Shown here piece after piece: positions 1 through 62,830 of a stretch of 64,000 nt of DNA. Under the pieces are notes generated by a model, which worked only from the letters and a program-made list of their open reading frames with translations, was not told where the DNA came from and ran no database searches. The translations under genes were made by a program, and so were the position numbers. This DNA comes from Undaria pinnatifida (taxonomy: Eukaryota > Sar > Phaeophyceae > Laminariales > Alariaceae), in contig JABAKD010000100.1 in the NCBI GenBank assembly GCA_012845835.1, positions 209,426 through 273,425 of the forward strand, written 5' to 3'. Position 1 is the stretch's first letter. Every line of letters starts with the position of its first letter.

Positions 1-113
1 CTTCTTTTTTTTCTCCCTCTAGATCGGTTTGTTGGTGACTGTAGCTGCCGCCCCAAGATCCAAGCCTGGATCCAACCTTCCTCTACACTTCCACCCCACC
101 AATCTCTACTCCA
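1..113 (+). other. 5' leader of the Gypsy element
   Basis: This is the pyrimidine-rich sequence before the first Gag ATG at 114. I see no primer binding site in it and no sequence repeated near 12.3 kb, so the 5' LTR must lie upstream of the window. Confidence 0.5.
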
Positions 114-1143
114 GTGCAAGCGTCCCTCCCACCTTTCCTCGACATCGACATGGCTGAGAGATACGCTTCCGACACCAACATGGCTGGGGCCCACACCCCT
201 GATTCCCCCAGCTCCCGCGAGGAGCGGTACACCGCCAGGACCGCCCGCGCAAACATGGACGACATCCCGAACGTGGAATCCATTCTGGGCGATTTGACGC
301 CCCATACGGCCACGCCGGGCCCCCCTCCCCCGAGAGCAGGCACCTCCGGTGCCGGGCGAGAGCCCACTGTAAAGCCTGAGACCACTTCGCAGGACTCTGC
401 AAGCCCAATCTCGGACCCGGGGAACACCCAGGGCCACCGCGCGGTTTTTCGCGAGCGCCGCGCAGCCCTGCAAGCTCATCACGAACAGCTGGTTCTCCAT
501 CTAAAGGAGAGCGCCGAGCTCTTGCTTAGGCTCCCCCCATCCCCAACCCTTTCCACGAACCCATTCTCGCCGTCATATACGGCTACAGGTGCGACCGCGG
601 CCACTTCGGTCCAACCGCAGCCGCTCCCCTCCCCCACGCAACCTTCAGTGCCTGTGTCCTTGCGGGCACAGCCGCTGCGGGTAGCGCCAACCCATGCGCC
701 CGCCGAGACGCTTGGAGCCACTACTTTCCAGCTGCCACCGCCGGCCCAGCCGGTTACCACAACCTACCAGGTGCCACCGCCTGCCCAGCCCTTGCCCTCC
801 CCCACCCCCTTGGCATCCTCACGACCGACGGTTCTGCCGCGCGAGGCTATTGATTGGGATTTCTGCGACGCCACACTCCGCTGCATGCAGAGAACACGCG
901 GAGCAGCTTTCGCTGATGTCTCATCGGCGGCACACCGCCTGTGGGGTTTATTCGCCCCCGATAGCGACCCATCGGTCGCGTTCGTCCAGGCCCGTGCAGC
1001 CACAACTAGCGCATGCGACGAGCTCATCAGGGCCACCAACACCCTGGTACTCGCCCTTCGTCACTTCCACAACAACGCCGACCGCGGCTACGTGTGGAAC
1101 CAGACAGAGTACCGTCCCGACGCCACTGCACGCCCCCCCCCCC
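114..1143 (+). CDS. gag: Gag, N-terminal part (frame-broken)
   Basis: The frame opens at ATG 114 and encodes a Pro/Thr/Ala/Ser-rich, probably disordered head with repeated PPPAQP-type motifs near residues 205-230. A short ordered stretch follows (FCDATLRCMQRTRGAAFADV onward). It runs into a run of 11 C at 1133-1143. After it the frame stays open to 1454 but turns into low-complexity, Arg/His-rich sequence, while the +1 frame continues with a P/T-rich linker and the capsid-like core. A one-base excess in the C run explains this. It could be a mutation, a slippage site or a homopolymer error. Gag proteins assemble the cytoplasmic virus-like particle. Confidence 0.7.
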
Positions 1144-2859
1144 GCCACGACGGCCGCGCCCACTGCTGCGACGCCGTCCCAGCCCACCACGAACGCGCCC
1201 ACGCCGGCGACGGTCCCCAATCCGCCCACCAGGACAACGCCAGCCCGATCGGGACCTATGACGGACGACGAACATCATGCCGTTACTCGCCAGTACGACG
1301 TGGTGGACATGCGGAAGTTGACACCACTCGTACGCCTACCCTTCCCGGCCAACAGCGACGCCGCCGTCTACCTGGGCATGTTCCTCGCCAGCGTCAAACT
1401 GGCGATGAGGGAGATCCTCACAATCTGCGACGAGTCCGGAAAGCAATCATTTGACACACCCCCGTGGGTTAAGGGATGGCACCAAACCCTCCATAAATGC
1501 TTCCAAAAGGCTCTCGGGTATCCGCAGGTCATGGCGTCTCCCCTAACCCGCCTCATCGACGATTTCTTCGTCCAAGTTGTCCAGGAACTAGGCATCGACG
1601 GAACCGGACCGTCGGCTTTTAGGAAGCTGCTGCAGCTCCTAAACAACCACTTCAACGACGGCGACCAGGGACGCGCCTTCCAACAGCTGCACTCCTTCGG
1701 CGTACCGAGCTCAACTGACTGCTCCACGTTCCTGCGAGCGTTCAAGGAGCGTGTCTCGCTCGCACAGGGCACGGAGAAGATTTTCAAACCCAGTGACGCT
1801 ATGGTCGTCGAAATCGTACGCGGAGTTACCAGCAGTCAGTACCCGTCGCTGATGCCAACTCTCTACCCTGGGCGCCTCATGACGACCTCGCAGCCGTTCG
1901 CCACGGTTGCGGACATGTGGTCGGCCTTCGAGGTACTGGCAACGAACAAGACGCCAGCTATCAACGGCCAAGGATTTCATGCGACCTCTTCCGGCGGGCA
2001 TATTACGTACTCCTCTTCACCACCACCTCCTGCGCAACACACCAACACGCGTGGCCCCGGCACTCGTGCGATAGGTTCCGCGTCAAACCCACTAATCATG
2101 AACGTAGCTGAGGCCGACCGTGACCCATTCTGCGAGGACGAGCCCGACTGGCCTCTCCGACACTACGAGGAGGTGTACATGGTGACGACAACGTTTAGTA
2201 CGCAGGATCCCCCGCTGCTCACTCCGCTCCTGACGAGCTCGGCCCGTGCTCAAGCCCTACGCGCTCACGGTGGATATTGTCTTAACTGCAACGGTACGGA
2301 TCACAGCATGAAGACCTGCCCCCAGGACTTCATCAACATATCCGGCATCCTTAACCCTGCACTTGGCCAGCTAAACGATGGCGACCACGCCTACCGCCAA
2401 TGGCAACAACGGATGCGTTCTTACCGCCGGGGCCAGTACGAGCACAACGTCGACCGAAACTCCAACCGCTACGCCCACCGTAACGACAACCGCGGGGGCA
2501 CTTACCACAACAACAACCGGGGCGCCAACAACAACAACAACCGCTACAGCCACGACCACTCCAACCAACACCGGGGCAACAACGGACGCTCTAACAACAG
2601 ACGCCACAACAACGGCCGCTCCCACGACAACGGCCGCTCCCACGACAACAGCCGCTCCCACGACAACGGCAACCGACAGTCGCAAGGGCAGCAATTTCAA
2701 CATCGCCGCGCCGCCGCCGCATCGCAGTCGACAGCCATGACGGTACACGACCCGGCGACCTATGCCCCCCCAGCCGCCGCCCCGTCGAACATGCGGATCG
2801 GCAATAACAACGCGACCAACCCCAATCAACGACAACCGGGCACCTTTCGCACCAACTGA
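1144..2859 (+). CDS. gag: Gag core with CCHC zinc knuckle
   Basis: The reading frame enters after the C run and ends at UGA 2857-2859. A P/T-rich linker is followed by a helical capsid-like region from about 1300 to 2000 (VDMRKLTPLVRLPFPANSD, WVKGWHQTLHKCFQKALGYP). A zinc knuckle CLNCNGTDHSMKTC follows at 2278-2319, an exact C-x2-C-x4-H-x4-C. The tail is Asn/Arg/His-rich with NNNNNR and GRSHDN repeats and would bind RNA. Zinc knuckle plus basic tail is typical of nucleocapsid. Pol continues in the same frame directly after the single UGA, so the ancestral element may have made one Gag-Pol chain or used stop readthrough. Confidence 0.85.
   Translation, partial: ATTAAPTAATPSQPTTNAPTPATVPNPPTRTTPARSGPMTDDEHHAVTRQYDVVDMRKLTPLVRLPFPANSDAAVYLGMFLASVKLAMREILTICDESGKQSFDTPPWVKGWHQTLHKCFQKALGYPQVMASPLTRLIDDFFVQVVQELGIDGTGPSAFRKLLQLLNNHFNDGDQGRAFQQLHSFGVPSSTDCSTFLRAFKERVSLAQGTEKIFKPSDAMVVEIVRGVTSSQYPSLMPTLYPGRLMTTSQPFATVADMWSAFEVLATNKTPAINGQGFHATSSGGHITYSSSPPPPAQHTNTRGPGTRAIGSASNPLIMNVAEADRDPFCEDEPDWPLRHYEEVYMVTTTFSTQDPPLLTPLLTSSARAQALRAHGGYCLNCNGTDHSMKTCPQDFINISGILNPALGQLNDGDHAYRQWQQRMRSYRRGQYEHNVDRNSNRYAHRNDNRGGTYHNNNRGANNNNNRYSHDHSNQHRGNNGRSNNRRHNNGRSHDNGRSHDNSRSHDNGNRQSQGQQFQHRRAAAASQSTAMTVHDPATYAPPAAAPSNMRIGNNNATNPNQRQPGTFRTN
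2614..2667 (+). repeat. 18-bp tandem repeat (x3) in the Gag tail
   Basis: Three consecutive 18-bp units (2614, 2632, 2650) of the form RGCCGCTCCCACGACAAC encode (G/S)RSHDN repeats in the Gag basic tail. The third copy differs at its first base. The unit length keeps the frame. Confidence 0.85.
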
Positions 2860-3800
2860 AGAGCCGGTGGTGGAGCAACTGCAGCATCTCCGCCAACAGC
2901 ACTTGCTGCGAAGACCGGGTCTCAAGACGCCCGAGTACACCACGTGCGTCACGACCCCCTGCCCCCTGTCCCCCTACGTCCCCCCCCTACCCCAGCCCGA
3001 ACCCCAACCACTTGTTCAAGCACTGATCCTCTTGTTCCAGTGATTGCCTTGAGGTGTGGGCAGGAGGAGGCCAAGACGTCGGGCCCTACTGGGATGCTCC
3101 ACTCGACGCCTTTCCGCGATGTGCAACGCTACCTGCCGACTATCGCTGAGATTCCAGACATTGCTAACCTGGGCGAAGTCTCGACGATTACGACTACCAG
3201 CGGTTCCGGTTCACACGAAACGGCTGTTTCGTCTACCGGGCCATCGCCCCCTGAGCTCGCCTCGACCCCAGATTGGCCACTGCTCACCCGCTCGTCACAG
3301 GACGTGCGCCCTTTTAGTGGCAACGTTGGGCCCGCGAATGACGGTTTCCCACTCGCTGCCACGATGTTGACAGCACCACTGTCCCTGAGCTCGAGGGACA
3401 GCCCCGTCGTACAGATGGAAGACTCGCGATCACAGTCGACCAGGACATGCTCTGAACACCCTGCCCCGTCATCTTCGCCGGCTTCACGCTTTGCGTGGAC
3501 TCGGGCCACAGGATCTGCATGCCCTAGCGAGTACAGCCCTGCTCTCCAAACGCCTGAAGACAGGACCTTTCAGGGTATCCCCGCCCAGCGTGCGCGCCAC
3601 CGCGTGGACCCTCCCGGTACCTCGGCTTCGCTGAGCAATTCCCCCGCGAACTCGGGCGTTCAAGTCAGCACCGCCCGATCGGACCTGACTCTACCCCCGA
3701 CAACGCCACACGGCGACATTCCCAACAATCGCCGACACCCACCCCTGCAACACCCTTCCGACGACTCGCCCTCGCCAGCACATGACACCGCGGACCCCCC
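2860..3800 (+). CDS. pol: Pol linker upstream of NADAR, no recognised domain
   Basis: This is the same frame as the Gag core, open from just after UGA 2857-2859 to 3903. It is rich in Ser, Thr and Pro with little sign of fold. Short stretches such as FRDVQRYLPTIAEIPDIANL may be helical. Near 3794-3801 (GGA, six C, G) the coding signal passes to the -1 frame, where the NADAR domain starts at once. The local sequence GAC CCC CCG could serve as a -1 slippery site or may simply have lost one C. I recognise no domain in this part. Confidence 0.5.
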
Positions 3801-4387
3801 GATTCTTTCCATTTCTTCTGGAACTCCTCGTCCGTCTTCTCACAGTGGTACCTGTGCGACATCGAGTACGAAAGCGTCACGTACAACTGCGCCGAACAGA
3901 TGATGATGGCGCAGAAGGCTGCGCTCTTCGGTGACACCGCGACAGAGCTCCGCATCCGAACCACCCCCGACCCCGCCGACCAAAAATCTCTTGGACGCAC
4001 CGTGTCCGGCTTCGACCAGGAGTGTTGGGAGCGACATCGCTACGACATCGTCCTCAACACCAACTTCTGCAAGTTCAGCCAAAACCCGGACATACAACAA
4101 GCGCTCGAGGCAACTGGCGAGAAGCACATCGCTGAGGCCAGCCCGTACGACCTCGTCTGGGGCATCGGCTATAGGGCCGACCACCCGTTTGCCTGCGAAA
4201 GGGCGCGCTGGCGCGGTCGGAACCTGCTAGGCCGGGTACTTATGGACGTCCGCGAACGCCTTTGCTCAAGCCTCCACGCCACAAGCGCCCTCGCCCCCTG
4301 CTCCGCTGAGCCAACACCCACCACCACCGACGCCAGCCGGGTCTTCCCCACCGCAGATGGCATCCACGAGACAAGCCCCCCCCCCCC
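3786..4387 (+). CDS. NADAR (YbiA / DUF1768-like) domain within Gag-Pol
   Basis: The frame is open after a TGA at 3783-3785. From 3801 it encodes about 154 residues with the NADAR signature from end to end: an aromatic start (FHFFWNSS), then YNCAEQMMMAQKAALFGD with the conserved Glu codon at 3894, LGRTVSGFDQECW, a KF.QNPDIQQALEATG helix, EASPYDLVWGIG (4134-4169) and RWRGRNLLGRVLMDVRERL (4207-4263). NADAR proteins act on ADP-ribose or NAD-like N-glycosides: YbiA-type enzymes cleave riboflavin-pathway intermediates and DarG1-type domains remove ADP-ribose from guanine. All motifs I know for the family are kept, so the domain looks functional. It lies between the Gag-side linker and the protease, and a P/S-rich spacer follows to the 12-C run at 4376-4387. 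The first ATG is at 3900, but the domain clearly begins upstream, so it must be made as part of a longer chain. Confidence 0.85.
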
Positions 4388-5060
4388 TTCGACAAACGCC
4401 GGGTACCCCGCTTGGACTCCTTCTGCCACCCTCCACCCCGGACGCCTTGCCCAGCAGCCACTTCGCTCGGGTCTCCGCCGTCGACGGCGCAACCAACCTA
4501 TACCCCGCTACTACCGCGCCGACGATACCAGAACATGGACCGTGCCTTACAAGCGGCATCCTAACTGTCGACGACGCGTCGTTCACGACCGAAGTACTAG
4601 TCCACAGCGGACCTACCGCCGCCAAACGCTGCAAACTCGTGGCGCTGCCCGACACAGGCTCCCCTCAGTCGTTCATCACCGCCGCCGCCGTGGAACAACT
4701 GAAGGCATCCCGGTCAGCAACGGATGAGTGCGAGCGACAGAACTCACCTCGTTCATGGGGAGATTTCGGAACCTCGACTCCCCTCTCCACCTCCGTTTCC
4801 ATCCGCTTAAGCATCCAGTTTAAGCACCACCGAACCCCCACCGCCGCCCTGGCAGTATGGGCTTGCGTCGTTCCTGCAGGAACTATGCAGCATCCCATCC
4901 TCTTGGGGCGAGATAGCTGGATGCGCTTCGAGCGACGCTCGTATACCACGCTCCCGCGACAGCCCCAGCTGCCACACCAGCCCCCCCAACCGACCCTGGG
5001 CGAACTTTCCCTGCACCACCATGACACCAACAGGCCTCCGCCTTCATTCCCGACGACCGA
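4388..5060 (+). CDS. pol: Retroviral-type aspartic protease (Pol)
   Basis: The frame is entered after the 12-C run at 4376-4387. The active-site loop is LPDTGSPQSFI with the catalytic Asp codon at 4651-4653 (D-T-G). The C-terminal hydrophobic motif HPILLGRDSW is at about 4892-4920, as in retropepsins (ILLGRD). The region between is about 80 residues, a usual length for a protease that works as a dimer and cuts Gag-Pol. The coding signal moves to the -1 frame between 5025 and about 5060, where the +0 frame becomes low complexity and the other frame reads HQQASAFIPDDRYTDDVYHL. There is no long homopolymer here, so a true indel is likely. Confidence 0.8.
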
Positions 5061-7725
5061 TACACCGACGACGTCTACCACCTCCGGTTCGCCGGCACGA
5101 AAGTTATTTCGCTTTCCTCCTCGCCGAAGCTCATCAAGGTCAACCTCGTGCGCCAGTCAGGCGCCCCGGCGTTTACCGGGCAGTACATGGTCAACATGCT
5201 CCCCCGCGAGGACCTTCTCACCGACAAGGTAATTTTCGTCTCTGACGGACACCAGACTATCCCATTGTCAGGATCAACCGATCTCGAACCGGGCGACCTC
5301 CTCGGAACCTCCCTCTCCCCGCTGGTGCAAGTACCACTAGCCACCCTTGGGCACCCTTCTTTGGACCCCCCAGCCCCTCCACCTACGCCAGGCGTACATG
5401 CCCTACACGACAACATCCCTGTGGCCAGCGAAAACCCCTCACCAGCCGATCCCCACGACCCACCGACAGCACCGTGCCCACAGCTCCTTGCACGCCTCGA
5501 CACCGATCAACGACCTAGCTTCCTCAACCTCTGGGACCGTCTGCCGCCGCATCTGCGCGACATCATCTTCGACCTCCACGGTTCCGGATGGTCCCCATCG
5601 GTGATCGACAGCCTGGGAGATGTCCTCTGCGAGTTTCTGGACGTCTTCTCCACCTCTAAGACCGACTTCGGCCCGTGCTCATTGATGCTGTTCAAGATCA
5701 CCGTACCTCCGGACAGCGAACCAGTTACCTCCCGCCCGTACAGGATCAACCCCATCCTTGCCAAAAAGGCCGACGCCGTCCTCGACCAGTACCTGGCCGC
5801 CGGCTTGATTCAGCATTCGACCTCACCTTACTCCAGCCCCATGGTCGCCATCCCGAAGAAGGACGGCGGTGTCCGCATCACCATCAACTATAAGAAGCTG
5901 AACGCCATCAGCTCCCTCGGACAGCTTCCCATCCCCCGCGTTGACGAGGTCCTCGATTCTTTAGGAAAAGGGCGCATTTTCTCCCTCCTCAACTTGGTCT
6001 CCTCGTTCCACCAAATCACCATCGACAAGGATATCATCCCTTTGACGGCGTTTTGCACGCCAGACTGGCTCTTCGAGTGGCTTGTGATGCCGCAAGGCAG
6101 CAGTGCCTCCCCCGGTTGGTTCGTTAAGGTTATCAACGAGGTCATCAAAGGCTTGGAACGCGTCGCCGCGTACCTCGACGACATCATCGTCTTCGACCCC
6201 GACCCCGCCGACCACGTCGCCAACATCCGAGCCCTTTTTGGTCGCCTCCGTAAGCACCACCTCAAACTTTCTCCCTCCAAGGCCAAAATTGGCGCCACAA
6301 CCGCCGACTTCCTGGGGCACACCATCTCCGCTGGCGGCTACAGCCCCAACTCCGAAAAGGTCGCCGCCCTCACCAAAATGCCCATGCCCACCGACAAAAA
6401 ACAGGTGCGGTCACTCCTCGGAGGTATCAACTACTACGGCAAGTTCCTACCGAACCTTTCCAGACGCCTTCGCCCCATCAACGCTCTACTCAAGCAGGGC
6501 GCCACCTTCGACTTCACCCCCGCCATGGAAGCCACCATCCGCGCCATCTTCCACGAACTTACCGAGCCACCGATCCTCGTCTACCCCGACTGGGACGCCG
6601 TCGCCGACGACTCCCGCCCTTTCCGCCTCTACTGCGACGCTCGCATCGACGGCTTTGGAGCGACTCTCGAGCAGGAACAACCTGACGGCTCCGTCCGCCC
6701 GATAATCTACATCAGCCGCGCCACTCTGGACTCCGAACGTTCATGGACACCCCTCGACCTCGAGGCCGGCAGCATCGTTTGGGCGATCAAGCGACTACGC
6801 GGGCATCTGTGGTCCACTCGTTTCGAAATTTATTCGGACCACAAGGCGCTCGAGAACATCGCCAAGGTTGGCGAGCACAATGCTCGCGTCCGGCGCTGGC
6901 TCGAGTTCCTTTCGGCTTACAACTACACACTGAAGTACCGCAAAGGTACGGCCAACGGCAACGCCGACTTCCTTTCACGCCTACCACAACCAGCCACCGA
7001 CGCCGACCGCACCGGGCGCAACCGCCTCACTGGGCCGGACACTGTTGGCATCTACCCCATCCGCCCCTGCGGCTTCGCACCGAACGAGCCGCCTACACCG
7101 GGTATCGGCTTGGGTGGGCTCGTGTCCCCCCCTTCAAGACCCATTCCAACAATCCAGCCTCTTCCCTTCACCGCCGACGACTATATCGACTTCCGCCTAC
7201 TGGGATCACGCATGGAGCACCACGGCATCCCCAACAACTTCGTCGGGCCTATTTTGACCCGCGACTCCACCGCCAGGCCGCTCGTCAGCTCCGAGAATGC
7301 CGCCGTGAACACCGGCGCTCCTCCTGGTTCGGCTTCCAGGCCACCCGTCGTCTCCCCGCTGTCCACCATTGGCGCCACGGAACCACCGCCTTCTGGTCTG
7401 ATCTCTTCACGGACCCGCCATCGCGCCGCCGCCGCCGCGGGAACCCCCCGACCTACCGCAGACTATGGGTTCGGACGCCGTCCGAAACCAACCGTATCCA
7501 GAAGATCTACATCTACCCGTCGACCGCACACTCCCCCGGCCGGGGCCCAACCAAGGCTTCCCCCGACGACAACGCCTCCAGCTGCCGTCCCCACGCCGCC
7601 CGCGTCACCCGCACCAACCGCACCAAGACCGGCCCCTCCTTCGACGACTTCTCCGACGTCCCAATCAACACCGCCACTTCTGCTCCCGGATCCTGTTGTC
7701 GACCTAAACATCGACCCCACCTCCT
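5025..7725 (+). CDS. pol: Reverse transcriptase - RNase H (Pol)
   Basis: This frame is open from 5025 to 8033 (first ATG 5148). RT spans about 5690-6450: SSPMVAIPKKDGGVRITINY (fingers), motif A LLNLVSSFHQI, VMPQGSSASPGWF (motif B), YLDDIIVF (motif C, Tyr codon 6171) and FLGHTISAGGYSPNSEKV. RNase H follows, with acidic residues at codons 6636 (CDARIDGFGATL), 6762 (PLDLEAGSIVWAI) and 6837 (YSDHKAL), then NADFLSRLP. Motif A normally reads LDL; here the first catalytic Asp is Asn (codon AAC, 5991-5993), which should abolish polymerase activity. A P/T/A-rich spacer follows from about 7300. The integrase frame takes over near 7700-7735, and the rest of this frame to 8033 is noise. Confidence 0.9.
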
Positions 7726-9973
7726 CGCCCGCGTTGAGCGCTACACCTACAGAGACTGGGCGCGCGAACAACGCGCAGAGCCCGTGTGCTACGCCGCCAT
7801 CCGCTTCCTATCGTTGGACTCCCCTTCTCCGCCGCCGGCTGACCTCTTGGATTCCATCCCCTCGGCGCAGCGCCCACTACTCTCCGACGTCCTCGCGCTT
7901 GCCGCCAAAGGCAGACTCCACCACACTGACGACGAAACAGCCCTCCTGGTCCAACGACCACCCACATCTCAACCCGGGAACAGCCTCCCGCCACCCGCAC
8001 CCTATCCCCCCCGCGTCTACGTTCCAATGCTGATGCGCCCCTGGGTGCTGAACACATGCCACGCCGACACCTCCCTACACCTTGGAGTTACCCGGACGGT
8101 TCGCATGCTGGCACGGTTTTACTGGTGGATCGGCATGGACGTCTCCGCCCGCTGGTGGATCCGCCGCTGCCTTCACTGCCAGGCGCGCAAGACCTCCCGA
8201 CACACCATTCGCTGGCCGACGCTCTCCCTCCCTTTACCCAACGGCCCTGGCATCACCGTCAGCGTCGACTACTTCGGGCCCCTACCTCTCACATCGCGCG
8301 GGAACGTGCACATCCTCTTATTTACCGACCGTTTCAGCCGCCGGGCCGACATGTTCGCTGTCTCGGCAGAGAACTTCACGGCCGCCGGAACTGCCGACAT
8401 CCTGCTCAACGAGTACATCTCTCTCAGGGGGTGCCCGGTGACGCTCCTCTCCGACAATGGCCAACAATTCACCTCCAAGCTGGCGACCATCGTCTACGAC
8501 CGCGTCGGCATCCGCAAGGTCAACACCAGCGCCTATCATCCCTGCACCGACGGCGGCGTCGAGCGGGTCAACCATGTACTGGCCCAGATGCTCTCCATGG
8601 TTGGCAACGAGAAGCAAACCGACTGGGACGTGCTACTGCCGCACGTGTCGGCGGCCTACAACAACTCTGTCAACGCCGCCACCGGACTGGCGCCCAACGA
8701 GATCCAAATCGGCCGCCTACCACGCCTCCCGCTCTCGGTCTTCGAACCCGAAAACATCGGCGGTCACCAGAGCCTGGATCGCGACCACCTAGTCTACATC
8801 AACCTTGCCACCGACCGGCAACAACGCGCCTACTCCCTCGTCCGAGAGCTCCACCGACTCACCGTCTCGCGTCTACAACGCCGCAACGCGCACATCATGG
8901 CCGCCCTCCTCGCCTCCCCCCCTTTCTCCGTTGGCGGCTGGGCCTGGGTCTACAACTCCGCCTCCACTATCCGCCAGGGTGCCAAGAAGGGCACCGACGC
9001 AACCGTTCTGAAGACGAAACTCTCGTTGATCTGGAACGGGTCTTTCAAGATCCTCGCGGTGGGCCCGACTGCAGCCTCCGACACCCCCGACAACCGGCCG
9101 CTACAAGACAAGCTGCTTTTCCTCGATCTACCTTCAGACCTTCCGGGACGGGACTCCGAACCACGCGTCTCCGTCAAACGGTGCAAGCCCTGCCACAACC
9201 CCGACGACACCAGCGACATACCCAAGCACCTACCAGCGGACCTCACAACATACGTCCTCACAGCTTCCGCTGCCAAGTCCCCCCCCTACCACGTCACCCT
9301 CGACGACGTCACACCACCACCGGAGCGCCTTGAGGTTGAGCAAATCACCGGCCACCAACTCGTACGCGGCCGCGGCGGAGTCATCGCCGTCCTATACGAG
9401 ACCCACTGGACCGGACTCCTCAGCCCCTCGTGGGAACGCAAGCTCGACCTCCAACACTTCAGGCGCCATATTTTACTCTACTGGTCCGGAAAGCCGACAC
9501 AACACCGTCAGACCAACCGCCTCTACCGCCAGATGCGCATCGGCGCCGCACACCGCGAGCTCTCCCGATCTCAAGGCCAACTCTTCCTCGCCCCCGGCTA
9601 CACCCTGGGCCCCCGCGACCTTTGGCTTCGCAATTTCAGAAACTCCACCCTCCCCTCCGGGGCACACGTTTGGTACAAGGCACGTGATGGCCTCTGGTGG
9701 CTAGGCAAGATCGCTCACCGCGCGCCACCGGACGTCTCTTCGCGAACCCCCCCGGACCCTTCCCCGGGTAGTTCCTACATCATCAGGTTCCTAGACGACC
9801 CCGGCCCGATCAAGATCGACCTCCAGCTAACTCGCTACACTACCGCCCGGAATGCCGTCTCCGGATCGTGGTGCCTTCAACGCCATGGGCATGGGAGCCT
9901 ATCCCGTGGGTTGCTACGGAATTCTGATGCTTCCCGCGGCGCCCCTACCGTTCCAACTCCCCCCCTTGGTTAG
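7726..9973 (+). CDS. pol: Integrase with chromodomain and Tudor-like tail (Pol)
   Basis: The frame carries coding signal from VERYTYRDWAREQRAEPV to the stop at 9971-9973. It holds an H2C2 zinc site (H at 8060 and 8075 region, C at 8168 and 8177). The DDE core has D at 8267 (VDYFGPLP), D at 8453 (SDNGQQF) and E at 8561 (GGVERVN), with D-35-E spacing and all three residues intact. A linker follows, then a chromodomain at about 9326-9485 (EVEQITGHQLVRGRGG, YETHWTGLLSPSWERKLDL) and a Tudor-like SH3 fold at about 9655-9880 (GAHVWYKARDGLWWLGKI, YIIRFLDDPGPIKIDL). Integrase inserts the cDNA, and the two C-terminal readers probably direct it to modified chromatin. This segment has no internal stop. 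Confidence 0.92.
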
Positions 9974-11755
9974 TTTCGGGTGTTTTATCTGTTTTTGGTT
10001 ATTCTACAGTAGTTTTGGGATTAGTTCTTCACGGTCAGCCTTCTACAACAGCTTTGATAGTACTACCTCATGGTTAGGCCTTTCACCTACGGTAGCATTG
10101 GGAATGATTCTTCATAGTCAGCCTTCAACTTGCAGTAACTTCAGTGGTATTATCGTGGTCATTCTTCCGACTTAGAGTGTTTTTTTTTTTCGTCATGCCT
10201 TCTCGTGGTTAGCCTACAACCGTTGTCAGCCTTTGAATTTGGTTTTAACATTGTGGTGTCCCTCGTAATACCTCCGCTTTTGGTTTGTTCTTCATACCAG
10301 CGTTTGCTTCTCTTTCTCACCACCATCGATTCCGTCTGTCCCACTCCGTGACGGCTGACAACTCGTGGTGGTAGAGCAGTATTCATAATTTTCTGCAGTA
10401 TGCAGTGTTTTAGGTACGCCCGTCTGACGACCCGGTCTTCCTTTGCCCCACTCTGTGATGGCTATCGAACCAGGACCGCCTCGTACCTAGGGTGTGTTAA
10501 GGTGTTCCTCCCCCTCTCTTTTTTATGTTTTTTTTTGTTTTCTCTCCACCACTACGGTCTCTGCTAGTCTCGTTTCGTCCAGGCTTTCGAACCGTGGTCG
10601 TCTCTTTTTCTTCTTGTGTTTGTACTTCACGATTCCTCCGCCGATACTCGGTGATTTTGCCCCTAGGCGCTCGATCTTTGTGTTGTATCCCGACCGCCGC
10701 CGGTGCCGCTTTGCCCTGACGGCATCGCCGAGCTCTAGGTTTGATTGGTTTTCTGCGCACTTTGCCAAGTAGGGCCCCGGCAGCCTTGCAGACTTGCAAG
10801 ACCACCAGAATGCCGGCCATCCTTTCTTTCTTTGTCTTCTCGTGTTTTCTTCGTGTTTGGGTCACGGTAGCTTTTGCCGCCCCGCAAGGCTGCCGAATTC
10901 TCAGTAATCATATTCCTGCCACGGTTGATCCCCTGGAACTGTGCTCAGGTTCCCGTGAACTTCCCAATCACGGCGGTAATTGTGCTCTCCCTTTCTTATG
11001 AGTCTTTTGGTTCCTGTTTTTTTTTTTTCTAGGTGTACACGTTGCGTTGCCATTCTACGCTATATGACGCGCCAGTCGACCCCCCCTGTAGGCGTTGCTT
11101 TGGCATGCTAAGTCCGTCGCTCAGCGCTGCTGACATTTTTTCTGTGTTGAACGAATTAGGTCGATCCACTCGCGTACCTCTTTGGCTACCCTGACTTTCT
11201 GTTCGTGTTGGTTGAGTTACCTTGCTACGTTTGCCGGTGTTGTTCCCAGCGCAAACAGACCTACCAAGGCGCCATGTCGTTCGCTCTACCAAACGGTCCT
11301 AGCAGCCCCTTAGTTTTAGCAAGCCTTACGGCAACCTAGCAGCGTTCGTTTTGCCTTACGTGTTAATTTTCATTTTCTTCGGGCCTTGGCCACGCGGCTA
11401 CGCGTAATGCCTCCCGACCATATATACTTTCGAATTTGGGTGATGCCCCTTTGCGAGCTTTCGAGTAACCGACCCTGTACGGCGAATGACTCTCCGTTCG
11501 CTCCCCCCTGGGCCCTACATAGATCGCTCCGGTAATATGTTTCTGTTTTTCTTTGCCTTCGCTTTGATCTCTGCCTTTCTTAGCTGCCTTCCCTTTGTCT
11601 TGAGGTTTCCTTTTTGGTCTCAAGTTTCCCATACTCTACATAGGTTGCTCCAATCTGGGTTTTCTGTTTTCCTCTATCTTCCTATGGCCTTTCTTTTAGC
11701 GATCTGCTTTATTAGTGAATAGCCCTATCCTTGGAGTTTAGGCCTCATTACGAGG
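9974..11755 (+). other. 3' untranslated region of the Gypsy element, possibly with part of the LTR
   Basis: This is T-rich, gene-free sequence after the integrase stop. Short diverged duplications occur, such as CCCACTCYGTGAYGGCT at about 10339 and 10448. I find no convincing long polypurine tract, so the left edge of the 3' LTR cannot be fixed from this copy alone. An alternative LTR start, TGTTAAGG, is at about 10495. Confidence 0.4.
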
Positions 11756-12385
11756 TGTGGGGGAATCTATAGCCTCATGTGTTTGTTTCGATAGCCGCAT
11801 CTTCGACCTCTTTTCCCGGTCTTTTAGGATGAAGTTTGTCGTCATCTTTCGACCGTCTTGAGGTCTGCATATACGACTGTTCAGGGTGGGATAATGTAAT
11901 ATAGTATCGATATAGCGGGCAATAGATTCGGTGAGATAGTCCGCAGAGTTACGGTCTATTGGCCACAAGAAGATTCTCTCAAAACGGAATATTCTTAGTG
12001 AAGCGGATAACCCGTAGAGAATAGCTAGCTTATACCACAAGAACGTTCTCGGTAATGGAACGTCCTCCTCTGGACAAGATAGGTAGAAGTAAGCGCGTTA
12101 AGCGCTCTTGGGAATATAGAACACCTAGGAGAACGTTCCTTGTACGTTCCATAGGTAAAGGTCCAGAAGAGAGCACAGCAGCAATGCTGGAGGGTGAAGC
12201 GAACTCTGTGAGCCTCACCCCACCCCCATGCTCTCACTCCTTCCCCTTTCCTGTCTCCTTCGAGCTTCTCATAGCTCAACGCCAGTAATAAGAAATCATC
12301 AAAAAAGAACCGGTGCTGTCTCCAAGCGAAGCTGATACCCCTGCGTTCCTTCCCTCCCAACATCCGGCACCACGACTCCTTTACA
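11756..12385 (+). repeat. Candidate 3' LTR of the Gypsy element
   Basis: It begins TGTGGGGGAATC and ends CTCCTTTACA, giving TGT...ACA ends and a length of about 630 bp. It holds a TATA-like GAATATAGAACA at about 12111 and repeated GAACGTTC motifs (12031-12150). The right edge is well supported because the following GTAGAG resumes a dispersed repeat. The left edge is weak: the preceding purine stretch is short and the 5' LTR is not in the window for comparison. Confidence 0.35.
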
Positions 12386-12645
12386 GTAGAGTAATATAGT
12401 GAAAACTACAGAAACAAATTTATAAAATAGGTATGATGTTAGATTACTTCAAAATTCCCCACCTGAAGTAAAAATACTAACACCAATCATTGTAGTGGAG
12501 AAAAACGTTTGTTTATCAAAGAATAGGACCCCTCCCATTATTATTTTTCACCCACATAGCATAGTACAAGTACCAGCAAGCAGCTTCAAAATGTGAGTAC
12601 TGACTCGAAATTTGTCGAACTCACACCTGACGTCCTGGATTTTTT
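12386..12645 (+). repeat. Dispersed repeat module B, copy 1
   Basis: It starts GTAGAGTAATATAGTG and runs to a conserved end, ACTCACACCTGACGTCCTG. It closely matches 60782-61010 and, less closely, 12884-13090 and 62186-62360 plus 62737-62830. Its first bases GTAG would be the target duplication of the Gypsy element to its left. No coding potential is seen. Confidence 0.75.
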
Positions 12646-12654
12646 TTTGGAGAA

Positions 12655-13090
12655 TGTTAGAGTGACAGCGTATGAATTATGAACCGTGGGTTCGTGTCCA
12701 ACAGAGTTTTCATTTTATTTTATTTTGTTTTGGTGGAGAAGTAGCCGACTTTAATTCTCGAATGCTGTATTAAGAGTAACATATAAGATTAATAATATTC
12801 TGTAATCGTACGCTTCCCGATATTAAAGCCGGGGGGGATAAAAAACGAAAGAAACCGCCCACCATACATATCATAGAGCAATATAGTAGAAACTACAGTA
12901 ATAGATTTATAAAAAATATGTGATGTTAGATCTAGCTCAAAATTTCCCACCTAAAGAAAAAATAGGGCCCTCACAATAAAAACTTACCTATTTAGTACTC
13001 CGGAGTATATTACAAGTACCAACAACGCAGCTTGCAAATATAAGTATTGACTTGAAATTCGTCGAACTCACGGCTGACGTCCTTGAAATA
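12655..13090 (+). repeat. Dispersed repeat: tRNA-like module A followed by module B
   Basis: Module A opens with GTGACAGCGTATGAATTATG then CCGTGGGTTCGTGTCC, a tRNA T-arm-like block also tandem at 54.95-55.24 kb. It continues through CTCGAATGCTGTATTAAGAG to CCGATATTAAAGCC. Module B follows from 12884 to 13090. The A-B order is the same at 61945-62360, so it is one repeat family, probably a SINE or other non-autonomous element. Confidence 0.7.
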
Positions 13091-14100
13091 TTTGCAATAG
13101 AATCACTGTAGGAATGTAATTGCGTTCATCATTCAGGTTGCAAATGAGCTCCGGTCTGTAAGTTGACCTACATTTGATGCATTCTCTGAGATTATCACAA
13201 GACAAGGGCTTTTTTGCAGGCAATTTGTTTTTGGCCTTTGTGATGGAGATTTTGTGTCTTCGCAGGTTGTACAGGCGCTGCAAGGTCGTCCTCACAGGCG
13301 TTTCAGGAGTGGTGATACTGCAAACTGGTTCTAGTTTTAAATTTTGTATGGGGAATGTAAGCCTTTCTATAGCTGCTCTTTGTCATGCTAAGACCAAACC
13401 TGAATTGGAAACATGATTGAGGGACATTACCATATTGGAATGGGAACGGGGGAAGCTCGATAAAGTACGTTGGAATTTTGAGGATTGTAAAATATGCATT
13501 AATATTAATCAATGGAAACAAAACAATATTGCAGATGTCAGTGGAGTTATACACATGATGGGAATTACTGCATACAGCGGAGCTACATACATCTGGGGAG
13601 CTACTGTACAAGTACTTTCAAGGCGCGTAGGAATTTACTATTAATAGTTACGCATGAATATATGTAGACCTTGAAACTTTTATCGGTCGTTATTTTATGT
13701 ATGGATGTTTATACATCGATAGATGTTTACAAAACGATAGATTCTGCTGTTCCAAATTCGTTCAGATAATGTGCATGAAGGGTGTACAACAATGACAGAT
13801 GTAGCTACTGCCTCCAATTAGATTGATATGTCTTAGATACCTAAGGGATTCCATACCTTACTCTGTTAGTGAAGACTCGAGCTTTCGAAGGGCAGCATGT
13901 TCGAAGGGTTGCATATATATTATGACAAAGGGACAACTTTCAATAAACCAGGAAGGTAAATATACATGTACTCGAAACCTTTTCCCACCCACCTTGTCCC
14001 AAGCCACTGTTTATACCCGTTTGGTGGGGACATCTCGGTGTTACTAGACTCCATCGATCCCCTGGACTCCACTTGTATCCCTAGACTCAAAGGAAAACGG
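13091..14100. other. Gene-free stretch, no recognised feature
   Basis: I see short open frames only and none resembles a known family. The stretch separates the dispersed repeat from the second Gypsy-like element and could include the latter's degenerate 5' LTR, but I found no matching copy downstream. Confidence 0.3.
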
Positions 14101-14187
14101 GCGGCGTCCCGGGTAGGGGGGGGGAAATGATTGGAGAGGAAAAAATAACCGGGTCACCAAGGCCATGGCAGGAAGAGGGGGACCTTT

Positions 14188-14757
14188 TTGGGACCTTTTG
14201 GTGCACCTTACCCGAGGGGAGGCCCACCACAGGAAGGCCCGCCACAGAGCGGCCAGGCTGGAGGCCCACCACATGGCGGCCAGGTGGGATGGGGTCCACA
14301 GGGTGGTGCAGGACAAGGGGCAGCAGGACCGGAAAATCCTGTAGGAGCGGGGGGCGGGTACAATCAGATGTCCCCTGCCTCCCTATCGTCGCCCTTTGGA
14401 ATCGGAGGACGGTGGGGTCCACAGGCAGCCCCAAGAAGAGCACAACTAAACCCGAGATCGCCGTGGGGACCTCCGATAGTGCCAAGGCCGCCGCAGCAAC
14501 AACAGCCAAGGTTTGCTGGCCAACAGCAGCCAGGGTTTACCGGTCAACAGCGGCCAGGGTTCGCTGGTCAACAGCAGCCAAAGTTCATCGGACCAGCGGG
14601 AGCTCAGGGGTGGCAGGTACCGTGGGGTGGTCAACCCATGATGCAGGGGTGGGGACCCCAGGAAGGACAACCATCCTTCCCCCTAGAAAGTGGTGGATCG
14701 CAGATCGGACAGCTTAATCCGTCCAGAATGATCCAGTGTTCTTCCTTGACACCCTAG
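14188..14757 (+). pseudogene. Gag-like Gly/Pro/Gln-rich ORF of the second element
   Basis: The 189-codon frame is rich in Gly, Pro and Gln and carries four 8-residue repeats (QQQPxFxG). It lacks a CCHC knuckle. Its place before an RT fragment suggests a Gag remnant, but the composition is too simple to prove it. The frame ends just before a deletion joins it to RT. Confidence 0.4.
14497..14592 (+). repeat. 24-bp tandem repeat (x4)
   Basis: Four 24-bp units start at 14497, 14521, 14545 and 14569, each beginning CAACARC and encoding QQxPxFxG. The unit length keeps the frame. Confidence 0.85.
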
Positions 14758-14773
14758 TGGTGGAGTCGGGGAC

Positions 14774-15307
14774 TTGCAGTACGTTCGCTGCGGCTTCGGG
14801 TTGACAGTGGCATCCGCGTTTACCAACTACGTGGGAGGGCGACTGTTACCAGTCAAGGATAAGGGAACTAATAACTGGTTGGACAACATCGCCATCCCGT
14901 CGAAAACCTTTGAACATCAATGGGGACTGCTGCGAGAAATGTTAGAGTGTCTACGGCAAGAACGTCTAACCGTCAATCTCCAGAAATCGCATTTCTGTCT
15001 GTCGTTCATGGAGTTCGTCGGCATGATCGTGGATAGACTTGGTACCAGGCCGGCCCCGAGCAAGATTGATGCTATCACGCAGCTGTCAAGGCCGAACACG
15101 GTGGAGGAAGTGCGAGTGCTGCTGGGCATGACAGGGTACTTACGGCAATTCGTACCCCAGTATAGCACAGTGGTGGCGCCCATTTCCGACTTGCTCAGAG
15201 ATCCAAGGTTCAGAGAGCAGAACAAGGCTTTTAATGCGCTTATCGAGGCTTTGACAGCCTTGATTAGTCATCGATACTGCGGGCCAACCCTCATCAAGGG
15301 ACGTTAG
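14774..15307 (+). pseudogene. RT fragment of the second Gypsy-like element
   Basis: The frame matches Ty3/Gypsy RT from motif B to the connection: RCGFGLTVASAF, then WLDNIAIPS where YxDD is expected, EHQWGLLREMLECLRQERLT, KSHFCLSFMEFVGMIV, and the VRVLLGMTGYLRQFVPQYS motif (FLGxxxYYRxFI in the family). The second catalytic Asp of motif C is Asn and the upstream palm with motif A is absent, so it is inactive. The end (RDPRFREQNKAFNALIEAL) runs into a deletion where RNase H should follow. Confidence 0.85.
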
Positions 15308-15791
15308 AGACTACGTCCTCTCGTGTGGGTGCAGGCGTCGCAAGCGGTCAGCGAGTCAACGGGTTGCCATATTGCCGGCGAGATTTCTGCGACCCGGGGA
15401 AGTACACGAAGTCGACATCCAGGACATGGGGGTGAAGTCGGACGCAGGCAACAAAGTTCTATTGGTGGCAGCCGACAAAGCCAGCATTTTCTTGTTCGCC
15501 TCCCCGCTCCCCACGAAGGAAGCACTCGGAGTAGCGAGGAAACTGCTCGAAGTGACGCTTACTTTTGGGCTACCGCTGTATGTTCGCAGTGATCCGGGAT
15601 CCGAGTTCACGGCAGAGGTAATCCAACACTTATGCAAATGGTTGAACGTGACCATCGCATATGGGCCTGCCGACCATCCACGCGCACAGGGGACGGTGGA
15701 GAGACTGGGGGGGTGGCTACACGAAGCACTAGGAGAACTGTGCAGGACTTGGCCTTGCAGATGGGGCGAGTATGTACAGCCGGCACTGTGA
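15308..15791 (+). pseudogene. Integrase core of the second element
   Basis: The first ATG is 15372, but the frame is open upstream and begins with a CGCRRRKR remnant of the zinc-binding CxxC...K end. Core residues are VDIQDMG (D), RSDPGSEF (D) and GTVERLGGWL (E), all kept. The frame stops at 15789-15791. In another frame the chain continues with IHRTTPDLRLPGKPTPFRPF and FGRDARTQLDATLPEID, so a frameshift interrupts the gene near 15785. The product would have been a DDE integrase. Confidence 0.85.
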
Positions 15792-16316
15792 ATCCATCGT
15801 ACCACGCCGGACCTGCGCTTACCGGGGAAGCCAACTCCCTTCCGTCCTTTCTTCGGTCGTGATGCACGCACGCAACTTGATGCTACGCTCCCCGAAATAG
15901 ATGGTGGTCATTCCAGAGGCGGAATGCACAGTTACGTGGCCGACTGACGTCAAGGGTACAAGGAGGTACGGGATGTACGGGTGGCTCTATTGAAAAGACA
16001 TGAAGACAGACAGAAAAGTAGTCAGAGTCAAAATGCTGAAATCGGTCGGATCTCGGTGGAAACCCGTGTTGTTGTCGGACACAAGGTGCTGGTAAAGGAG
16101 GCGGAGTCTGTGATGGCAAGATATATCATAAACTAGCCCGCGAGCACTGGACCTTGGCAGGTGACTGAGGTTGCCTTACCAGGACTCAGCTACATCGTCA
16201 CGATGAATGGGCGAGGGATTCGCCGACGACGGGCGTTAGCAGCGAATATCAAGATGTTCTACTAACGTCCGGACGACCTCCGTCACGACTTCCAGCCGTC
16301 GGTTGTAGCGTCGCCT
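15792..16316 (+). pseudogene. Integrase C-terminal region, frame-broken
   Basis: Across frames one can read PFRPFFGRDARTQ near 15835, then GHKVLVKEAESVMARY near 16080 and REHWTGPWQV..LPGLSYIVTMNGRGIRRRRAL near 16140-16240. The HWTGPW..V..GLSY block is the GPY/F module of Gypsy integrases. Stops between the pieces show decay. Confidence 0.65.
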
Positions 16317-55546: not shown

Positions 55547-60013
<4,467 letters not shown>

Positions 60014-60119: not shown

Positions 60120-60781
60120 TGTCATAAGGCTTAGTTTGGGTAAGCTATTGGTTAACCTTTGGCAAGTGGTCAAACGGACCAATACCCCACTAATTCTTTA
60201 ACAAATGGCGTCGTCGACAGACCATGGGTTTTTGGGTCGTGGGTTCGATCCCCACATCCACCATAATAAACTTTTTCAGATTTTCCCATGGCGAACTTGA
60301 AAAATACTCTCCCCGGTATACCCAGGAAATGAAACGGCTTGGACATATTGACAGGTCCGCCCGTATATCCGGCCGACCTGCTATCCCGCCGTTTCAGGGG
60401 GGGAGAGTGTCATAAGGCTTAGTTTGGGTAAGCTATTGGTTAACCTTTTGCAAGTGGTCAAACGGACTAATACCCCACTAATTCCTTAACAAATGGCGTC
60501 GTCGACAGACCATGGGTTTCTTGGGTCGTGGGTTCGATCCCCACCATCCACAATAATAATCTTTTCAGATTTTCCCCATGGGTGAACTTGAAAAATACTC
60601 TCCCCGGTATCCCCAGGAAATGAAACGGCTTGGATGTTGACAGAGGTCCGCCGTATATCCGGCCGACCTGCTATCCCGCCGTTTCAGGGGGGAAGAGTTT
60701 TATAAGGCTTAGTTTGGGTAAGCTATTGGTTAACCTTTTGCAAGTGGTCAAACGGACTAATACCCCACAAATTCCTTAACA
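60120..60781 (+). mobile_element. TRIM array: three 84-bp LTRs and two internal domains
   Basis: The LTRs lie at 60120-60203, 60408-60491 and 60698-60781 (each about TGTYATAAGGCTTAG...CCTTAACA; the third starts TT instead of TG). Each internal domain starts AATGGCGTCGTCGACAG, a candidate primer binding site two bases after the LTR, and ends in a polypurine tract (CAGGGGGGGAGAG). GTAG flanks both sides (60116-60119 and 60782-60785) as target duplication. No coding capacity is present, as is usual for terminal-repeat retrotransposons in miniature. A shared middle LTR is the classic product of unequal recombination. Confidence 0.85.
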
Positions 60782-61010
60782 GTAGAGCAATATAGTAGAA
60801 ACTACAGAAATAAATTTGTAAAATAGATATGATGTTAGACTACTTTAATATTCCCCAACTAAAGTAAAAATACTAACGCCAATCATTGTCGTGGAGAAAA
60901 ACATTTGTTTATGAAATAATAGGACCCCTCCCAATAAAAAACAAGCACCAGCAAGCAGCTTCAAAATGTGAGTACTGACCCGAAATTCGTCGGACTCACA
61001 CCTGACGTCC
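60782..61010 (+). repeat. Dispersed repeat module B, copy 3
   Basis: GTAGAGCAATATAGTAGAAA to CTCACACCTGACGTCCTG is nearly the same as 12386-12645, and the TRIM array sits at its left edge. Confidence 0.8.
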
Positions 61011-61044
61011 TGAATATATACATATATATATATATAATATAATA

Positions 61045-61915
61045 TAAAAAATGAAAATACACTCCAGCTGTGAGATCGAAGATTTCGTCGAAACTCATCT
61101 TTGCTACGTAGCTGTGTGTGATACTCCGATCGCGCGCATTACGAGTTGTGTGTCCTCATTAAGGATATAGGTCGGCGACTCCCCTTACAACTACAGTGTA
61201 GCTATCAGGGTCAACAGGGTGATTTTAGTCAGTCTGTGTGCGGAAACTATAAAACCCGTTTCTGAGGGGGACAACATCTGACAGCTGTGGAGGGAAACGT
61301 ATCCTTTTATCAAGTGAATCTTGTAAGTCGAATAACCGGTGAGGGGGGGGGGCGGAGTTTTGAAGGACATGGGGGCCTGGTTTTGATCAAAAGCGAGCGG
61401 GTTTGGAGGAGGGGGGGGGGGGGGGGAAGGGGGGGGCAATTTGTGCATGTAAGTTATAAATCCTTTCAAGGGGATAAATCTGACGGTTTTGGCACCAGTT
61501 TATTATTGGGGGGGGGGGGGGGGTTGGGGCGGGGGTGGGGCGTGTGGGGCAGCTCAATATGTGCGTGGAAACTATACATTATTTTGAAGGGATAAATGTG
61601 ACGGTTTTGGAAATAATGCATCAGTTTATCATGTATATCCTGGGGTAAGTCGTACAATCAGTGAGTAGAGAGAGGGTGGAGTGTTCGAGGGGGTGGGGTT
61701 GGGATGGGTTGGGGGGGGGGGGAGGTGGGGGGTGGGCGCGGGGGGGGCGGGGGAGGGGGCGGGGGGGGGGCGGGGGGGTGGGGGGGGGGGGGGAAAGGAA
61801 GGGTTTTAGGTGAGGGGTGTGTTATACGTGTGGTGCTAGGTCTAGGCGATGGTGCGGGTGATGGGGAAGAAGGGGGTGTTCGGGGCGGGGGGGGGGGGGG
61901 GAAGCAGCGGTAAGT
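61045..61915 (+). repeat. G-rich repeat, inverted counterpart of 26100-26960
   Basis: It starts AATACACTCCAGCTGTGAG, includes GGATATAGGTCGGCGACT and AATAACCGGTGAGG, and ends with GGTGCTAGGTCTAGGCGATG. TTTTGAAGGACATGGGG-like and TATAAATCC blocks recur three times with G runs of 9-20. The many G runs could form quadruplexes. No gene is seen. Confidence 0.75.
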
Positions 61916-61944
61916 ATATATATATATCGGTACATTTTATAAAA

Positions 61945-62360
61945 TGTTAAGAGTGACAGCGTATCAATTTGGAACCGTGGGTTTGTGTCCCACAGAGTTT
62001 TTGTTATTATTATATATATGTATCTAATTTTGTTTTATTTTGGGGTGGGGGGAGTAGCCGACTTTCATTCTCGAATGTTGTATTAAGAGAAACATATAAG
62101 ATAACTTATAACATTCTGTATTCGTACTCCTCCCGATATTAAAGCCGAGGGGAAAAAAACAAAATAAACCGCCTACCATACGTATGATAGGGAAGTATAG
62201 TGGAAACTACAGTAATAAATTTATAATATAGATGTGATACTAAATCTAGCTCAAAATTCTCCACCTAAAAAAAAAATACCAACAATTACCATTATAACAA
62301 CTACCATTATAGTGGACGAAAAATAGGACCCCTCCCAATAAAAACTCACCCATATAGTAA
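61945..62360 (+). repeat. Dispersed repeat, modules A and B (left part)
   Basis: AGTGACAGCGTATCAATTTG, CCGTGGGTTTGTGTCCCAC, CTCGAATGTTGTATTAAGAG, CCGATATTAAAGCCG and TATAGTGGAAACTACAGTAA follow in the same order as 12655-13000. The copy is interrupted at 62361 by a TRIM. Confidence 0.8.
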
Positions 62361-62732
62361 TGTTGTAAGGCTTAGTTTGGGTAAGCTATTGGTTAACCTT
62401 TTGCAAGTGGTCAAACGGACTAATACCCCTCTAAATACCTTAACAAGTGGCGTCGTCGACAGACCATGGTTTTTTTGGGTCGTGGGTTCGATCCCCACCA
62501 TCCACAATAATAAACTTTTCAGATTTTCCCCATGTCGAACTTGAAAATACTCTCCCTGGTACCCCAGGGAATGAAACGGCTTGGATAATTGACAGGTCCG
62601 CCCGTATATCCGGCCGACCTGGTATCCCGCCGTTTCAGGGGGGGGGAGTGTTATATGGCTTAGTTTGGGTAAGCTATTGGTTAACCTTTTGCAAGTGGTC
62701 AAACGGACTAATACCCCACTAATACCTTAACA
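62361..62732 (+). mobile_element. Complete 372-bp TRIM element
   Basis: The LTRs are 62361-62445 and 62649-62732, about 95% alike, with TGTT...AACA ends. The primer binding site candidate is TGGCGTCGTCGACAG at 62448, and the purine tract AGGGGGGGGGAG lies just before the 3' LTR. The inside also holds GTCGTGGGTTCGATCCCCAC, a tRNA T-arm with a B box. The flanks GTAA and GTAT are an imperfect 4-bp duplication. Removing the element restores the repeat TATAGTA-TACTACAAG seen at 13000. Confidence 0.9.
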
Positions 62733-62830
62733 GTATACTACAAGTACTTGTACCAACAACGCAGCTTGCAAAGATGAGTATTGACCTGAAATTCGTGAAC
62801 TCACGGCTGACGTCCTTGAAATATTTTTTA
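62733..62830 (+). repeat. Dispersed repeat module B (right part after the TRIM)
   Basis: TACAAGTACTTGTACCAACA, GCAGCTTGCAAAGATGAG and CACGGCTGACGTCCTTGAAA continue the copy interrupted at 62361 and match 13007-13090. Confidence 0.85.

Follow-up and report, generated by a model that had tools for sequence, protein, structure and literature searches.

A 64,000-nucleotide stretch of Undaria pinnatifida DNA (contig JABAKD010000100.1; hereafter the window, to whose full length all positions refer) contains a Ty3/Gypsy retrotransposon copy that is broken and probably belongs to a lineage known from the brown alga Ectocarpus; in it a genuine NADAR domain lies on the N-terminal side of Pol, ahead of the protease (Table 1). 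The domain is intact, whereas the element is not. The NADAR is of the YbiA type, and we tentatively propose that it most likely frees guanine-linked ADP-ribose from the RNA or complementary DNA (cDNA) of the element.

The NADAR domain and its conservation among related elements

We searched the translation of positions 3786 to 4385 against Pfam, and residues 10–159 matched NADAR (PF08719) over positions 1–162 of the 163 in the profile (171.2 bits, E = 2.9e-50; cut-off, 35.1 bits). This result confirmed the initial annotation, which had predicted a NADAR domain in a Gypsy Pol, and the motifs quoted there (AEQMMMAQKA, LGRTV and WRGRNLLG) are present in the translation. The NCBIfam model TIGR02464 (riboflavin-intermediate N-glycosidase) also matched, with 149.2 bits, about twice its cut-off of 73.7 bits. 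The open stretch of frame 3 around the domain extends from 3786 to 4724, and the predicted structure (predicted local distance difference test score, pLDDT, 94.7) resembles solved NADARs. With a full-length match above the cut-off, the NADAR fold and the conserved Glu and Lys residues all present, the domain belongs to PF08719; it is complete and homologous to solved NADARs, and by analogy it may have ADP-ribose hydrolase activity. The order protease, reverse transcriptase (RT), RNase H and integrase (RVT_1, RT_RNaseH, Integrase_H2C2 and rve, with a DTG motif upstream) identifies the element as Ty3/Gypsy. Upstream of the NADAR is a Gag-side open frame in which a CCHC knuckle was spotted by eye; the DTG motif, RT, RNase H and integrase lie downstream.

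A search with the window RT protein gave 301 relatives above the threshold, and of the 120 that were listed, 24 contained PF08719 and RVT_1 in one protein. Eleven of the 24 are named proteins of Ectocarpus sp. CCAP 1310/34 (for example, P0128; P numbers are our handles for proteins), which is also the source of the named proteins closest to the window RT among the relatives listed. One of the clusters behind the NADAR–RT proteins represents 415 sequences, and another 126. P0241, an open reading frame (ORF) of 2170 residues, combines NADAR, RT, RNase H and integrase, with the protease motif between NADAR and RT. Overall, a protease motif was found ahead of RT in 17 of 121 RT-family proteins, 11 of which had sufficient room upstream, and 10 of these 11 contained NADAR. 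Rows of the RT tree labelled as NADAR seen or not seen formed no pattern, and the label 'not seen' does not signify absence, because the ORFs of many entries are incomplete or disrupted. The NADAR is a trait of an element lineage and not of a single copy.

We aligned the domain with the NADAR of Phytophthora nicotianae (8bau) and found that E37, K44, E117, K67 and R71 of the window correspond to E43, K50, E125, K75 and R79, which belong to the active site or lie at its rim (PMC11543638). Mutants have been made at the equivalent sites of the E. coli C7 NADAR; the results for the equivalent of E43 were mixed, and the equivalent of K75 was not needed for catalysis but was needed against the toxin (PMC11543638). 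In the retroelement rows, window included, E37 was kept in 24/25, K44 in 31/32, E117 in 35/35, K67 in 28/32 and R71 in 33/33 (only rows covering each site were counted, gapped rows being excluded per site). The 108 other rows had E37 in 108, K44 in 107 and E117 in 108. The third catalytic residue is Glu in the YbiA subfamily, Asp in DarT1-linked NADARs (BC4488) and His in phage NADARs (gp30.3) (PMC11125620). As it is Glu (E117) in the window, the domain falls into the YbiA subfamily, and the DarT1-linked type, with Asp at the aligned site, is ruled out.

Mean pairwise identity among seven elements (21 pairs) was 53.6% for NADAR, 46.9% for the protease, 61.5% for RT–RNase H and 33.7% for the linker, in blocks bordered by landmarks that we set and with the close pair P0133/P0136 lifting all means. 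Shuffled controls averaged 27.7% for NADAR and 27.6% for the linker; because only aligned columns were counted, individual pairs reached as much as 51.0% and 46.2%, respectively. With RT diverged by about 40%, a neutral region should no longer be alignable, and therefore the NADAR looks constrained; its sequence is better conserved on average than the protease and far better than the linker, which suggests that it is under selection. The initial annotation had named a single, neutrally evolving copy as the case that would refute it, and this case is contradicted at the protein level by the occurrence of NADAR in the element family, the kept residues and these signs of constraint.

Proposed function and alternatives

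In working copies, the NADAR would be made as part of Pol and packed with it into the virus-like particle, where the adjoining protease would perhaps free it. Its activity in the particle would be that of an N-glycosidic ADP-ribose hydrolase, and its most likely target would be ADP-ribose on guanine bases of the element RNA or the new cDNA; with this removed, reverse transcription could proceed despite host or incoming ADP-ribosyltransferases. Every NADAR tested reverses guanosine ADP-ribosylation of RNA, whereas the tested macrodomain- and ARH-like enzymes do not (PMC11833690), and a YbiA-type oomycete NADAR is active on guanine-linked ADP-ribose (PMC11543638). We favor this role, although with less than even confidence.

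Several points weigh against it. E. coli YbiA is credited with the cleavage of riboflavin intermediates, and TIGR02464, which the window NADAR matches, is named for this small-molecule function. The mutants cited above come from a DarT1-linked enzyme with Asp as the third residue, and the role of Glu is assigned by structural equivalence. In our own reading of the alignment, Q78 of the window takes the place of D86 in 8bau, the side chain of which is reported on the proximal ribose. The modelled piece consists of the core, without the extension thought to aid DNA binding of DarT1-linked NADARs. Single shuffled NADAR pairs reach the identity given above despite their low mean. P0165, one of the 11 relatives with room for a NADAR, has protease and RT with 300 residues upstream and no NADAR, which may reflect a natural loss. 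Finally, no ADP-ribosyltransferase was recognised beside L001 and L003, two of the 80 bacterial loci and among the nearest relatives, in ORF lists inspected by eye with no family search of the neighbours.

A serious rival is that the substrates of the NADAR are small molecules and not the nucleic acid of the element; they could be riboflavin intermediates, by-products of NAD, or derivatives of ADP-ribose, cyclic or free, that serve the host as alarm signals. It draws on the TIGR02464 match at twice the cut-off, on the modelled piece without a nucleic-acid-binding extension and on the argument that phage NADARs mainly target low-molecular-weight ADP-ribose derivatives (PMC9503650). However, the NADARs of eukaryotic RNA viruses, which share a polyprotein with the polymerase much as the window NADAR does, are argued to have macromolecular ADP-ribosylation as their primary target (PMC9503650), and a particle-bound enzyme present in small amounts with Pol would better suit a local macromolecular target. 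We regard a small-molecule role as somewhat less probable than the one favored above.

A NADAR that has lost catalysis and serves Pol as a spacer, or as a module for folding or packaging, would fit the location between linker and protease, the partial or altered domains in some copies and the one relative that has room but no NADAR. This role is improbable, since E117, R71 and K44 are kept (35/35, 33/33 and 31/32) while the domain diverges to about 50% identity. A role in processing the RNA intermediate, other than by ADP-ribose removal, has been put forward in general terms for Ectocarpus (PMC12477816). The conserved residues are, however, those of ADP-ribose hydrolysis, which makes such processing just as hard to credit. 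We know of no NADAR chemistry for RNA processing other than ADP-ribose removal. A single-copy accident, whether chance capture or an assembly artefact, might be suspected from the broken Pol, but it has a negligible probability and is ruled out by the NADAR–RT proteins among the relatives (24/120; their sources are several, and 11 bear the name Ectocarpus), the common motif and protease sequence downstream of NADAR, the kept residues and the conservation of the domain.

To our knowledge, accessory enzymes under visible constraint are rare in retroelements. An ADP-ribose eraser in Pol with its catalytic residues kept would point to nucleic-acid ADP-ribosylation, or to an ADP-ribose signal, as an obstacle for a eukaryotic retroelement. 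NADARs are the sole family, among the enzymes tested, that clears guanosine ADP-ribose from RNA (PMC11833690), and the idea is therefore testable with existing assays.

The broken element and the rest of the window

We compared the window with related proteins by tblastn and found that Pol changes frame four times. It is in frame 1 until about 3801, switches there to frame 3 and returns to frame 1 at about 4375; frame 1 ends at about 5031, frame 3 takes over from 5034 and ends at about 7556, and the remainder, from about 7703, is in frame 2. Three relatives cross these points, each in a single ORF: P0003 bridges the first, P0131 both the second and the third, and P0241 all from the second to the fourth. 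The second change coincides with a run of C. Overlapping open frames are the sole hint of another such change in the Gag-side part, close to the C run at 1133–1143. Because Pol changes frame four times, this copy is unable to move by itself; the earlier description of the NADAR as intact thus holds for the domain and not for the element. No repeat of at least 40 bases was found in 1–16000, and the start of the window recurs downstream as short words only; no pair of long terminal repeats (LTRs) was thus found, probably because the 5' end of the element lies outside the window.

Within the poorly conserved linker between NADAR and protease, a motif IHE[ITV] or [IV]FEV follows the NADAR; of the 21 rows listed, 16 have it, among them the window (IHET). 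It may be a cleavage site of the protease or form a short strand. At the C-terminus of Pol, a weak chromodomain-like stretch precedes a possible Tudor/SH3-like barrel; a Tudor domain is assigned to a different Gypsy lineage in PMC12477816.

Table 1. Features of the NADAR-bearing element in the window
Feature	Position	Strand	Frame	Evidence
Upstream open stretch	45–1451	+	3	May contain the first part of Gag
Gag-side open frame	685–2856	+	1	CCHC zinc knuckle at about 2278–2319, spotted by eye; no Pfam family matched
Putative N-terminal Pol linker	2860–3801	+	1	Open frame; backed by a relative for 3604–3801 only (tblastn of P0003)
NADAR	3813–4262	+	3	Full domain; catalytic codons E37 3894–3896, K44 3915–3917, E117 4134–4136
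Run of 12 C	4376–4387	+		Point of passage from frame 3 (NADAR) to frame 1 (protease)
Aspartic protease region	4522–5031	+	1	DTG at 4651–4659; tblastn of P0131, P0241, P0136, P0121; no Pfam match
Reverse transcriptase (RVT_1)	5850–6326	+		Pfam, E = 1.7e-26
RNase H (RT_RNaseH)	6606–6920	+		Pfam, E = 3.6e-27
Integrase	8021–8542	+	2	H2C2 8021–8194, Pfam, E = 5.5e-14; rve core 8243–8542, E = 5.4e-8
Possible chromodomain	9332–9472	+	2	Pfam Chromo, 11.7 bits (cut-off, 25.1); low model confidence
Possible Tudor/SH3-like barrel	9641–9889	+		Weak fold evidence

Elsewhere in the window, an ORF of 1147 residues with RVT_1 (55804–59247, + strand, E = 1.4e-14) apparently belongs to a second, different retroelement. 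A weak RVT_1 match at 14774–15307 (+ strand; 18.8 bits, below the cut-off, E = 0.0014) resembles a decayed second LTR element. Repeat blocks of 71–89% identity (12377–13094 and 60773–62828) occur both in the AT-rich sequence flanking the element and at the distant end of the window.

Origin and relation to known systems

Bacterial relatives are represented by 80 loci (L numbers), a partial sampling chosen from 588 hits by likeness to the window domain. A midpoint-rooted tree of 64 rows was built with 33 of the 80 loci, 13 further rows and the retroelement rows that were left after 7 of 25 had been dropped. In it, the main retroelement clade (13 rows) groups with P0011 and four Myxococcota loci (two Nannocystis, one Polyangia and one Myxococcales bin) with support of 99/93; three other Myxococcota loci are placed elsewhere. 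The subclade of the window (window, P0001, P0003 and P0007) and P0010 lie apart from the main clade, near the short NADAR proteins P0016 and P0024. We tested the retroelement NADARs as one clade by the approximately unbiased (AU) test, and this grouping was not rejected in a 131-row tree with 25 rows constrained (p-AU = 0.48), whereas it was rejected in the 64-row tree with 18 rows constrained (p-AU = 0.018). There is a hint of a separate capture or swap of the window NADAR, on which the two tests disagree. However, the tested group was defined only once a tree had been inspected, and some branches are long; two captures are therefore not claimed. A quick RT tree (29 rows, midpoint-rooted) that contained no other Gypsy lineages places the window RT among NADAR-bearing relatives, and a later swap of NADAR would thus be possible; the shared motif after NADAR argues for one insertion site.

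NADAR hits have been described as almost exclusively bacterial (PMC12477816). It is conceivable, although unlikely, that the algal Gypsy lineage repeatedly captured or exchanged bacterial NADARs at the same place in Pol as a counter-defence against host ADP-ribosylation of retroelement RNA or cDNA, and that host NADAR genes such as Esi0017_0056 were domesticated from the elements. This 391-residue Ectocarpus stress gene has DUF1768 at 132–291, and Arabidopsis expressing it tolerated salt and heat better (PMC7922944). In its layout it is similar to the N-terminal part of Pol in the elements (NADAR at 139–298 in P0133), and its domestication from them is possible. One scan of viral contigs found no relative; among phages, 708 records matched, every one with less than 60% identity.

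Two further arrangements were observed among the relatives. In Nannocystis pusilla L001, two YbiA-like ORFs lie side by side (3235–3744 and 3959–4486), one that resembles E. coli YbiA by eye being located just upstream of the gene related to the retroelement NADARs. The 1027-residue P0242, which surfaced in a search with a retroelement NADAR as the query, unites three ADP-ribose erasers (microbial PARG, ADP-ribosylglycohydrolase and NADAR) in one chain.

Among known systems, the NADAR of Phytophthora nicotianae (8bau) has 32% identity to the window domain, but it lies outside any retroelement and has extra N-terminal and inserted elements (PMC11543638). E. coli YbiA (2b3w; TIGR02464) is a stand-alone bacterial enzyme with 26% identity. 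The Nannocystis and Polyangia NADARs (L001–L003) are more similar (46–51%) and adjoin the main retroelement clade; however, they are bacterial genes and are not next to the subclade of the window. NADARs inside replication proteins of RNA-based elements are known from RNA-virus polyproteins and from ORF1 of the Tx1 LINE of oyster (PMC9503650, PMC12477816); the viral models have the same fold, with up to 36% identity among the matches listed, although the elements are different.

The closest parallel was not known to the initial annotation, which knew of no described retrotransposon of such a kind: a NADAR in one Ectocarpus Gypsy lineage (Gypsy-12_Ec32) was reported in September 2025 (PMC12477816), and we recognised no other paper describing NADAR in such retrotransposons among the matches listed. 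A C-terminal chromodomain is reported for Gypsy-12_Ec32 (PMC12477816), and the window has a weak chromodomain-like stretch, below the Pfam cut-off. The named RT relatives of the window are Ectocarpus proteins, and the window NADAR lies outside the clade of named Ectocarpus NADARs in our trees. The window element, compared with Gypsy-12 by its published description, is a further member of this already reported NADAR–Gypsy type, and our analysis adds to the accessible text of PMC12477816 the catalytic residue counts, the constraint relative to protease and linker, the Myxococcota neighbour group and the possible swap.
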